64,000 nt of DNA from an uncultured Cetobacterium sp. (lineage in GTDB: Bacteria; Fusobacteriota; Fusobacteriia; Fusobacteriales; Fusobacteriaceae). The position numbers and the translations under genes were made by a program. The notes under the pieces were generated by a model. That model was not told the origin of the DNA and ran no database searches. It was given only the letters and a program-made list of their open reading frames with translations. Positions 3,571-58,288 of the stretch are shown piece by piece. The stretch is taken from NCBI RefSeq assembly GCF_945952365.1, contig NZ_CAMFHX010000008.1, positions 1 through 64,000 on the forward strand, written 5' to 3'. Each line of letters starts with the position of its first letter. Positions within the stretch are counted from its first letter, which is position 1.

Positions 3571-4073
3571 TAGTTTTTACCTGATTCTTTCTTTAAAAGT
3601 TGTAACTTTTTAGAAACCATCCTTTTTGCAACTGGTGATATTTTATCTACGAATAAAATTGCTTCTAAATGATCATATTCATGTTGGAAAGCTCTTCCTA
3701 ATAAGCCTGTTCCCTCTTCAACAACCTCTTCACCTTTTTCATTCGTATACTTTATTTTTACAGTTACCGATCTTTTTACAGGTTTATAAACGCCTGGAAC
3801 ACTTAAACATCCTTCATCTTCATTTTCAACTACGTCAGATAGCTCTATTAGTTCTGGATTTATAATTTTTCTTATAACTCCATCCCCAACATCAATTACA
3901 ACTATTCTTTTTGCTATTCCAACTTGTGGAGCTGCTAATCCAACACCATTTGCTTCATGCATAGTCTCAACCATATTATCTAAAATCTCTAAAATCTCTG
4001 GTGTGATAGCCTCTACAGGCTCTGCAACAGTTCTTAAAGAATCATTCCCATATATTTTTATATCATATACCAT
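3570..4073 (-). CDS. def: Peptide deformylase
   Basis: 167 aa. It removes the N-formyl group from nascent proteins. All three motifs are present in order: GVGLAAPQVG (motif 1), EGCLSVPG (motif 2, metal-binding Cys) and HEYDH (motif 3, HExxH type, two metal-binding His plus catalytic Glu). Complete and of usual size. The downstream DivIC-like gene overlaps its stop codon; priA lies 44 bases upstream. No fmt gene is adjacent here. Confidence 0.97.
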   Translation of the reverse strand: MVYDIKIYGNDSLRTVAEPVEAITPEILEILDNMVETMHEANGVGLAAPQVGIAKRIVVIDVGDGVIRKIINPELIELSDVVENEDEGCLSVPGVYKPVKRSVTVKIKYTNEKGEEVVEEGTGLLGRAFQHEYDHLEAILFVDKISPVAKRMVSKKLQLLKKESGKN

Positions 4074-9886: not shown

Positions 9887-11041
9887 TTATCTAGCTAAAA
9901 GAGCTTTTAACTCTTCAACTTTATTTACTCTTTCCCAAGGTAAATCTAAATCAGTTCTTCCGATATGTCCGAAAGCTGCTAAATCTTGATAATTAAAGTT
10001 TCCACTTCTTAACTCTAGATCTCTTTCGATTCCTCTAGGTGTTAAGTCAAAGACATTTTGAACTGCTTCTGCTAATTTTATCTCTTCAACTTTTCCAGTT
10101 CCAAAAGTTTCAACTTTTACAGATGTAGGTTCTACTACTCCTATTGCATAAGAAAGTTGAACTTCACATTTGTCAGCTAAATCTGCTGCTACGATATTTT
10201 TTGCAACCCATCTAGCTGCGTAAGCTGCTGATCTATCAACTTTTGAAGGATCTTTTCCAGAGAACGCTCCTCCACCGTGTCTAAAGAATCCACCGTAAGT
10301 ATCTACGATTATCTTTCTTCCTGTTAATCCAGTATCTCCGTGTGGTCCTCCTATTACGAATCTTCCTGTTGGGTTGATATGGTAATGCTTAACCTCTTCA
10401 GCATTTAAATTGTAAGCTTCTAATACTGGCTTTATTACTAACTCTTTTACATCGTGGTGAATTTGCTCTTGAGTTACTTCTGGATTATGTTGAACTGAAA
10501 CTACTACAGTATCTACTCCTACAACCGCACCATTTTCATCATATGCTAAAGTTACTTGAGATTTTGCATCTGGTCTAGCCCAAGCTAAATCTTTTGATCT
10601 TGTTAATCTTGTTAATTTTACGATAATCTCTCTTGCTAAAACTAAAGCTAATGGCATTAACTCTGGAGTTTCTTTTACTGCTCCTCCGAACATTATACCT
10701 TGGTCTCCTGCTCCTCCAACATCTACTCCCATAGCGATATCAGGTGATTGTGAGTGAATCGCATTTAAAACACCACAGTCAGAGTCAAATCCCATACCTT
10801 GCTTGTAACCAATTTCATCTATTTTATTTCTTACGATATCTTGAATATCGATATATGTTGTAGTTGTGATCTCTCCACCTACGATTACTTGACCTGTAGT
10901 ACAGAATACCTCACAAGCTACTCTTGCTGCTGGGTCATTTTTTATACATGCATCTAATACTGCATCCGATATTTGATCCGCGATCTTATCTGGATGTCCT
11001 GGTGATACACATTCTGAAGTAAAGTAAGTTAAATTTTTCAT
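9887..11041 (-). CDS. metK: S-adenosylmethionine synthetase
   Basis: 384 aa, complete. It makes S-adenosylmethionine from methionine and ATP, in the cytosol. Signatures: [21 protein letters not shown] at the N-terminus (ATP/Mg site), [12 protein letters not shown], and the P-loop-like [19 protein letters not shown]. The ATG has an AGGAGGAACAA RBS. The gene is monocistronic, with its own promoter, a SAM-I riboswitch leader (11071-11210) and terminator, so its product should repress its own transcription. Confidence 0.98.
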
Positions 11042-11110: not shown

Positions 11111-11126
11111 AAATGCTCTTTATAGG

Positions 11127-11210
11127 TCATCTTTCTGGAATTAGCACCACACCTCTAAGGTAGGTTGCTGAAACGTCATAGGGCCAGTCCCTCAGTCTCT
11201 CTTGATGATT
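11127..11210 (-). promoter_or_regulatory. SAM-I riboswitch (S box) aptamer
   Basis: On the minus strand the leader reads ATCATCAAGAGAGACTGAGG, then GACTGGCCCTATGACGTTTC, AGCAACC, and GGTGTGGTGCTAATTCC. These are the conserved S-box elements in the right order (P1 5' strand, kink-turn and P2, P3, J3/4 and P4). P1 closes with GATGA at 11131-11127. Bound SAM should hold P1 closed, free the terminator at 11071-11110 and stop metK transcription. Confidence 0.96.
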
Positions 11211-11236
11211 TTTTTGTTTTTGTTTTTTACTGCTAA

Positions 11237-37018: not shown

Positions 37019-37111
37019 GATTCAACTTTTTTTTATTTATATTAGCTTTTTTTATTTTTTTGGAGTATATTATATTAAGCTTTGATTTTTCTAGGAAGGA
37101 GTATATCTAAA

Positions 37112-38581
37112 ATGAAAGAAAACTATTTAAAAAATGTATGTTTAAAAGAATTGAATCTTTCTGATAATTTTGAAAATCTTCTAATTTCTAATCTAAATTT
37201 TGAGCAATTAATTGCCGTAAAAAATTTAAATGGGAATTTTTTAGTCCTTGCTGGTGCAGGTTCTGGTAAAACTAGAGTTATTATTTACAGAGCACTTTTG
37301 TTACTTAAATTACAAATTCCACCCAAAAATATTTTAATTCTAACATTTACAAGAAAAGCTATCAATGAAATTAAAGAGAGAATCCAAGCTTTTATTCCTG
37401 ATTCAAATATAAACATTGAAACTTTTCATTCATTAGCCTATAGATCACTAAAAAAATATACTCAAAATAAAAATTTTCAGATTTTAAATTCTGATAACGC
37501 ACTCGAATTTGCTAACTCCTCTACTTATTATGCTCAGATTTCAAAATTTTTAACTAAAGATGAAATTATAAAATGTACTACTTCTATAAAAGATAGGTAT
37601 ACCAAATCTATTTTTTTCAAAAACTTAAATAAAACTTCTAAAAATATTTTATTAAATTTTTTTAATGATATAAACCTTCGAAAAAAACAAACAAATTTCT
37701 ACACTTTTGATGACCTACTAAACGAATTCTATAAATATCTTCATTTAAATATAATACCTACAGACTTTAAATATATTATGATTGATGAATATCAAGATAC
37801 TGATAATATACAAATCGAAATTTTAAAGATACTTTCAAAAAATAGCTTTATTATGGCTGTAGGAGATGATTATCAAAGTATATATAGTTTTAAAGGAAGC
37901 TCCACTGCAAATATTCTAAATTTTTCTAATGATTTTAAAGACAGTAAAACTTTTATTCTAAAAGAAAACTATAGATGCTCTAAAAATATTTTGAATCTTT
38001 CTAACGAATTTTCAAAATGTTTACGTTACTCATTTAGAAAAACACTAACAACCCAAAATATCTCTAACTCTTTTCCTATACTCAATATTTTTAAAACCCA
38101 TACTGAAGAGATAAATTTTATAATCTCTAGAATAAAAAATATTTTATCCTCAGATTCTAGTGCAAATATAGTCATTCTTTTTCGAAACTATATTTATATG
38201 GAAAACAGCATCAAGCTTTTCAAGAAAAATAATCTTATTTTTAATATCACTCAAAATCCTTTTCTTGAAAATATTTTTAAAAATTTAGATTTAAATGAAA
38301 GTAGTCAAATAACTCTATCTACAATACATAGTTCAAAAGGATTGGAATGGGACTATGTATTTATTCCTCTTCTTTTAGATGGAATCATTCCAACTTCTAT
38401 TGGAACAGATATTAATATAGAAGAGGAAAAACGATTATTTTATGTTGCTATTACCAGAGCAAAAAAAGAGCTTATACTTACTTATCCTTTAAGTTTTTAT
38501 AACTCATACGGACTTTTCTCTGCTTCCTCTCCTTTTATAGATAATATAGATTCAAATTTTTTCAATATAAAAAGAGGGTAG
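37112..38581 (+). CDS. Compact UvrD/Rep-family (SF1A) helicase lacking the 2B subdomain
   Basis: 489 aa from the ATG at 37112 (SD AGGAAGGAG); a TTG 30 bases upstream opens the same frame without an RBS. All helicase motifs are present: Q-like FEQLIAVK, I AGAGSGKT (~48-55), Ia LTFTRKA, II IMIDEYQDTD (~222-231), III GDDYQSIYSFKGS (~251-263), IV near ENYRCSKN and LFRNY, V TIHSSKGLEWDYVF (~404-417), VI RLFYVAITRAKKEL (~441-454). UvrD, Rep and PcrA run to about 650-750 aa. Between motif IV (~357) and motif V only about 40 residues remain, so the 2B subdomain (inserted there, ~150 or more residues) is missing. Lysine, asparagine and isoleucine content is high even for this genome. Role in repair or replication is likely but not specific. 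Confidence 0.87.
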   Translation: MKENYLKNVCLKELNLSDNFENLLISNLNFEQLIAVKNLNGNFLVLAGAGSGKTRVIIYRALLLLKLQIPPKNILILTFTRKAINEIKERIQAFIPDSNINIETFHSLAYRSLKKYTQNKNFQILNSDNALEFANSSTYYAQISKFLTKDEIIKCTTSIKDRYTKSIFFKNLNKTSKNILLNFFNDINLRKKQTNFYTFDDLLNEFYKYLHLNIIPTDFKYIMIDEYQDTDNIQIEILKILSKNSFIMAVGDDYQSIYSFKGSSTANILNFSNDFKDSKTFILKENYRCSKNILNLSNEFSKCLRYSFRKTLTTQNISNSFPILNIFKTHTEEINFIISRIKNILSSDSSANIVILFRNYIYMENSIKLFKKNNLIFNITQNPFLENIFKNLDLNESSQITLSTIHSSKGLEWDYVFIPLLLDGIIPTSIGTDINIEEEKRLFYVAITRAKKELILTYPLSFYNSYGLFSASSPFIDNIDSNFFNIKRG

Positions 38582-57700: not shown

Positions 57701-58288
57701 TTATCCCCCTATGTTCAACCCTTTTAATATTGGATATCCATCTGAAAATTCAATTATAACCACTCCGGCATTTTTAACACTAAATTTCCAATAAGCATCC
57801 AATCCATTTGAAAAATAATAGCTTAAAATAGTATTTATAATACCCCAATGAGTAACTAAAACTGTATTTTCTTCTAAATTAACTTTTTTGTTTATAAAAC
57901 CTATTGCCCTCTTTTGAAGTTCTAAAACACTTTCCCCAGTTATATAGTTATAACTTTCCCAATCCTTTTGACTTTTCTCTAACTCTGTTGGATATTTTTC
58001 CAATAACTCTTCATAAGTATGTCCTTCGAAAATTCCAAAGTTTAACTCTCTTAACTCTTCGTCTATCTGTAAATCTAGCTCTTTTATATTAACTATTTCT
58101 GCTGTATCTAAAGCTCTTTTTAAATCACTACAATAAATTTTATGATAATCAAACTCTTTTAAAATCTCTCTCGTCTTTTGAGCTTGATCTCTTCCTTTTT
58201 CTGTAAGAGCAGGATTTAAAATACCGTAATAAACTCCTTTTACATTCAGTTCAGATTCTCCATGTCTAATTAAAATAATCTTTCCCAT
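57701..58288 (-). CDS. cobC: Histidine phosphatase, probable alpha-ribazole phosphatase
   Basis: 195 aa. Phosphoglycerate-mutase-like: starts MGKIILIRHGESELNVKGV with the catalytic RHGE, has EELRELNFGIFEGHTYEEL and the second His in VTHWGIINTIL. Family members act on many phosphates; the position between cobS and cobT makes dephosphorylation of alpha-ribazole phosphate the likely role (CobC). RBS AGGAGATATCT. Ends 1 base before cobT starts. Confidence 0.88.
   Translation of the reverse strand: MGKIILIRHGESELNVKGVYYGILNPALTEKGRDQAQKTREILKEFDYHKIYCSDLKRALDTAEIVNIKELDLQIDEELRELNFGIFEGHTYEELLEKYPTELEKSQKDWESYNYITGESVLELQKRAIGFINKKVNLEENTVLVTHWGIINTILSYYFSNGLDAYWKFSVKNAGVVIIEFSDGYPILKGLNIGG

Follow-up and report, generated by a model that had tools for sequence, protein, structure and literature searches.

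A conserved PcrA-like helicase of Cetobacterium that lacks the 2B subdomain

An uncultured Cetobacterium sp. encodes a UvrD/PcrA-type helicase in which the 1A, 1B and 2A motor, with all of its motifs, is intact and conserved and the 2B subdomain is absent. The protein (P0001) is the product of positions 37112-38581, plus strand, of a 64,000-nucleotide stretch of DNA, henceforth termed the window. It is probably an accessory SF1A DNA helicase or translocase, a PcrA paralogue that has lost 2B, has no PcrA-type C-terminal tail and would act as a monomeric, non-autoinhibited 3'-5' motor. Its orthologs point to a wider history: at one Fusobacteriaceae locus, a second UvrD-type helicase may well have reduced its autoinhibitory 2B at first, with two or three independent losses of it afterwards.

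The open reading frame starts with an ATG at 37112, ends with a stop codon at 38579-38581 and encodes 489 amino acids. The features below were placed by reading the sequence (ribosome binding site), from the open reading frame, Pfam, a PcrA alignment and orthologs (coding sequence), from the sequence and a 20-row family alignment (motifs) and from segment lengths in alignment A3 (linker).

37096..37101, plus strand: likely ribosome binding site AAGGAG, 10 nt 5' of the ATG
37112..38581, plus strand: coding sequence of the 2B-less SF1A (UvrD/PcrA-type) helicase, 489 aa
37253..37273, plus strand: motif I (Walker A), GAGSGKT, residues 48-54
37784..37798, plus strand: motif II (Walker B), DEYQD, residues 225-229
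37862..37885, plus strand: motif III, GDDYQSIY, residues 251-258
37967..37975, plus strand: motif IV, NYR, residues 286-288
38243..38308, plus strand: 22-residue linker at the 2B site, residues 378-399
38321..38350, plus strand: motif V, TIHSSKGLEW, residues 404-413
38441..38467, plus strand: motif VI, YVAITRAKK, residues 444-452

The first-pass annotation had read all six motifs in these 489 residues, and the open reading frame, Pfam and the 20-row alignment confirm it: motifs I-VI of an SF1A enzyme are present, with the Walker A, Walker B and arginine residues intact. Catalytic residues are invariant across the 20 rows, one of which (L036) is an apparent duplicate of L008 and not an independent row; within motif I, G48, A49, G50, G52, K53 and T54 are invariant and S51 nearly so. 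Given these shared catalytic residues, chance is not at issue for the helicase assignment. The Pfam UvrD N-terminal domain is complete (residues 28-276 cover positions 1-271 of a 271-position model), and UvrD_C is matched as split pieces. The score against the PcrA equivalog TIGR01073, 244.6 bits, does not reach the cut-off of 911.2, which the full-length PcrA of the same genome also misses (802.9).

The 2B subdomain of SF1A enzymes is missing from its place between motifs IV and V. The segment at the 2B site in alignment A3, taken from the end of the first 2A half to motif V, comprises 22 residues, compared with 171-179 in seven PcrA proteins. Motifs III and V are separated by 153 residues; seven PcrAs have 303-315 residues there, E. 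coli UvrD has 311 and Rep 315. Comparison by phmmer with a PcrA of solved structure (1pjr) pairs residues 23-361 with PcrA 7-362 and residues 395-459 with PcrA 554-620, which leaves about 190 PcrA residues without a counterpart at a gap of about 33 residues in the window protein. The spacing of about 40 residues between the motif IV region and motif V given in the first-pass annotation holds if the ILFRN strand (355-359) is taken as the starting point and motif V (404) as the end; starting from NYR (286-288), it is about 115. In two orthologs (L017 in G011 and L027 in G001) the linker is nearly gone, with motif III-V distances of 129 and 127 residues. At its other end, the window protein stops soon after 2A and has no PcrA-type C-terminal tail (alignment A2). 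Such tails bind RNA polymerase.

An AlphaFold2 model, computed from 20 family rows in an alignment that held 2B-less sequences only, has a mean pLDDT of 82.3 and a pTM of 0.71; residues 259-263 and 422-430 fall under a pLDDT of 50. The predicted model has the 1A-1B-2A fold of SF1A enzymes: VIA-align superimposed 460 of the 489 residues, spanning positions 16-489, on Deinococcus radiodurans UvrD (4c2u_A, 658 residues; Z 35.9, rmsd 3.7). This alignment found neither an extra domain nor a 2B elsewhere in the predicted model, and no residues are left to form one. A 2B hidden elsewhere in the chain was rejected on this basis, and the structure prediction suggested in the first-pass annotation thus came out in favor of its reading.

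The same genome holds a full-length PcrA elsewhere, as a 743-aa open frame (G000:C1), so that the search for a second full-length helicase that had been advised was also successful. The two proteins are 34% identical over residues 24-381 of the window protein. PF00580 gives seven matches in six open frames of this genome, the window gene included. One further UvrD-like protein of about 940 aa (L003:1356-3818, G000:C42) is distinct from PcrA and has relatives of 908-976 aa in many Fusobacteriaceae. An ortholog of the window protein is carried by all 12 Cetobacterium (g1) genomes; in G004 it is divided between the ends of two contigs (C7, ending at 57869, and C36, ending at 3963), in what looks like an assembly break. 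Four ortholog pairs have dN/dS values of 0.138, 0.182, 0.146 and 0.148. Sequence, structure model, orthologs, purifying selection and the separate PcrA together bear out the first-pass view of a naturally 2B-less UvrD-family motor.

A natural 2B-less PcrA-like helicase is a kind already known, since one was described in 2013. Mycoplasma pneumoniae PcrA-s (MPN340) is, like the window protein, an SF1A motor without 2B in a genome that also encodes full-length PcrA (PMC3720892). The likeness between them is one of description, and there are differences: PcrA-s is 47% identical to a PcrA encoded next to it, whereas the window protein is 34% identical to a PcrA located elsewhere; among mycoplasmas, PcrA-s was described as confined to M. 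pneumoniae (PMC3720892), whereas the window protein is conserved across genera and, unlike PcrA-s, has orthologs at its own locus that bear a 2B. With PcrA, UvrD and Rep it shares the motor, the motifs and the predicted 1A-1B-2A fold, and differs in lacking 2B and, where PcrA has one, a C-terminal tail past 2A. Rep-delta-2B is likewise a Rep-type motor without 2B, but an engineered one, while the window protein is natural and has diverged further elsewhere. The motif III-V distance is also short (127 residues) in E. coli helicase IV (HelD), which has its own N-terminal extension and 684 aa in total and is credited with a 79-residue 2B despite that distance (PMC3720892); the window protein scores 161 bits against the helicase IV model, far under the cut-off of 543. 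GajB of the Gabija system is UvrD-like and about 490 aa long, and PADLOC GajB models match the window protein. However, GajB comprises the full set of four subdomains, 2B among them, and acts together with GajA (PMC10681800), and no GajA model matched (PADLOC, E <= 1e-5) among the five window neighbors scanned; we therefore rejected a Gabija identity. Searching the literature for Cetobacterium together with UvrD found no papers. As far as the literature was searched, what is new is a 2B-less helicase conserved across a genus and related genera, with reduced-2B orthologs at the same locus.

The mechanism we propose draws on these relatives. As a monomer, the window protein would use ATP hydrolysis to move 3'-5' along single-stranded DNA, and it would unwind short duplexes free of the 2B-dependent autoinhibition known from Rep, UvrD and PcrA. 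Deleting 2B activates Rep monomers (PMC13238157), as the first-pass annotation had stated, and PcrA-s is an ATP-dependent helicase without 2B that works best on 3' tails (PMC3720892). By analogy with these two proteins (PMC3720892, PMC13238157), the first-pass expectation that the motor would be constitutively active is sound. Rep-delta-2B is faster on single-stranded DNA and defective in protein displacement (PMC6158625), so the window protein should likewise be poor at pushing proteins off DNA. PcrA-s showed no significant DNA binding and no stable DNA complexes in gel shifts (PMC3720892), and the window protein should similarly bind DNA weakly in such assays yet unwind it. Poor protein displacement and weak binding, if the analogies hold, would make naked or nascent DNA its probable substrate, in repair or fork processing alongside PcrA. 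A UvrD-like fold is no proof of helicase activity, because GajB was seen neither to bind nor to unwind DNA in vitro (PMC10681800). Regulation could come from the 22-residue linker or from an unlinked partner.

Ortholog searches covered 61 genomes; a phylum search covered 98 genomes and kept matches at E <= 1e-60 only, so that weaker relatives may be missed. Orthologs without 2B occur in 12 of 12 g1, one of two g2 (G001), six of 12 g4 (G017-G022) and three of three g12 genomes, and longer orthologs of 638-656 aa in four g4 genomes (G024, G025, G027 and G028). No ortholog was found in the g4 genome G023, which is 71% complete. At the syntenic position in G026, a long-form helicase (L081:4558-6523) is spread over three overlapping frames of 219, 409 and 84 aa, reflecting either a decaying gene or sequencing errors. 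Most g4 and g12 orthologs have an N-terminal extension that is absent from g1; within it, an LExREV-like stretch is conserved in the g4/g12 orthologs L018-L026, long and short alike. A genome-contig scan with a single-protein query returned two loci, namely one Cetobacterium ortholog and one ordinary 2B-bearing helicase. Outside Fusobacteriota, the spread was sampled at 83 loci (L097-L179; 80 viral contigs and three similarity hits). The motifs lay in one open reading frame at 45 of these, the other 38 being outside the reach of the pattern, and the motif III-V distance was 268-330 residues at 42 of the 45 and below 200 at three (L165, L177 and L178). L165 and L177, on phage-labelled contigs, hold UvrD-like open reading frames with distances of 143 and 169 residues, which suggests that 2B-less forms exist elsewhere; match lengths suggest further short forms at L144, L151, L152 and L174-L176.

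Trees combined outgroups with 21 rows of the short form and 4 of the long form; G004, which is divided between contigs, G026, whose frame is broken, and the UvrD-like paralogues of about 940 aa were left out. The long clade is nested within the 2B-less set. Holding all short forms together gave p-AU values of 0.0128 (38 rows) and 0.0197 (32 rows), several rows having unusual amino-acid composition or long branches. A single 2B loss is thus moderately rejected, and 2B was probably lost at least twice. If only losses are allowed, the best tree needs three, and a tree with the long forms as sister to g12 plus the short forms of g4 needs two; the two-loss grouping has a p-AU of 0.242 on the 32-row tree, and two losses are not separated from three. 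PcrA is the sole outgroup of that tree, and monophyly of the family rests on larger trees with long viral and plasmid branches.

At the 2B site the long orthologs carry 130-140 residues (four rows of A3), compared with 9-28 in seven short g4/g12 rows. A history of one ancestral loss, followed in the long forms by gain of an insert with no relation to 2B where 2B had been, needs only two changes on the trees, and the isolated insert has no detectable similarity to known 2B sequences by hhalign or to a 51-sequence 2B profile by hmmsearch; 39, 107, 155 and 318 of 983 scored shuffles equalled or exceeded the four native inserts. In full-length context, however, the native insert outscored every one of 200 shuffles in three of the four long orthologs and 195 of 200 in the remaining one. 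On the G024 protein, the NCBIfam PcrA profile extends into the insert (residues 63-505 matching profile 3-445), while on a short ortholog it ends at residue 430 (profile 371). A long-ortholog model (mean pLDDT 81.1; insert about 64-84 in ten-residue blocks, with one block at an end at 57), whose input alignment contained PcrA rows that could favor a 2B-like fold, superimposes on 4c2u_A over 572 residues, a gain of 112 on the 460 of the short model. We read the long insert as a reduced 2B from the in-context shuffles, the PcrA profile and the long-model alignment, and consider loss followed by regain unlikely. The longer orthologs that another genus carries at this locus might also suggest that the window gene was recently truncated, or is decaying, from a normal UvrD/PcrA gene, and truncation revealed by normal-length homologues was to have counted against the first-pass reading. 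Half of that outcome is seen, in that longer orthologs do exist, but the short form is old: retention in every Cetobacterium genome, catalytic residues invariant over 20 rows, dN/dS of 0.14-0.18 and an intact frame refute a truncated gene or pseudogene and make decay highly improbable. Conserved and under purifying selection, the short form is an evolved state.

The function of such a conserved 2B-less motor also admits other readings. It is unlikely that the protein is a single-stranded DNA translocase that does not unwind duplexes, for example one that strips recombination filaments or SSB, loss of 2B having removed the duplex contact. The 2B subdomain touches the duplex in PcrA-DNA crystal structures, and the lack of stable gel-shift complexes with PcrA-s would fit (PMC3720892), yet both Rep-delta-2B and PcrA-s unwind DNA, and Rep-delta-2B is poor at displacing proteins even on single strands (PMC6158625), which speaks against stripping. 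A partner that supplies the missing 2B or switches activity, as the first-pass annotation had also entertained, would have precedent in MutL, PriC and RepD, which activate UvrD-family monomers, for UvrD via 2B (PMC13238157). Gene neighborhoods were compared in 21 genomes, comprising the window, 18 other short-form and two long-form genomes (G024 and G028). A holA-like gene is nearby in 19 of the 21 loci and absent from the compared stretch in G013 and G049; in the window it matches its NCBIfam model over the full length (66.2 bits against a cut-off of 80). However, it is convergent with the helicase gene there and three genes away in most g4 loci, and no other neighbor is common to all lineages. 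In Cetobacterium the neighbors are the holA-like gene and a gene for an aldehyde/alcohol dehydrogenase, which in the window lies on the opposite strand; the five window neighbors encode the dehydrogenase, a DUF2147 protein, the holA-like protein, a metal ATPase and a methyltransferase. Short forms of g4 and the long forms of G024 and G028 share one gene order, namely holA, ABC permease, oxidoreductase (missing from the G021 locus) and helicase, indicating orthologs in place. The dehydrogenase, permease and oxidoreductase look unrelated to the helicase; the neighborhoods thus lend partner control no support, and we consider it quite improbable. Farther away, the window contains a SAM riboswitch (Rfam RF00162, 70 bits; 11124-11211, minus strand) upstream of a minus-strand open reading frame at 9887-11041.

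Arguments about the role of 2B in autoinhibition, protein displacement and partner switching have so far relied mostly on deletions made by engineering. At this locus some orthologs have a reduced 2B and others have none, and they would serve as natural matched pairs for testing that role; the conserved short form also shows that some conserved cellular function can proceed without 2B. If repeated loss at this locus is true, the resulting natural series of orthologs would point to selection, more than once, for a motor that is unregulated or regulated in a different way.
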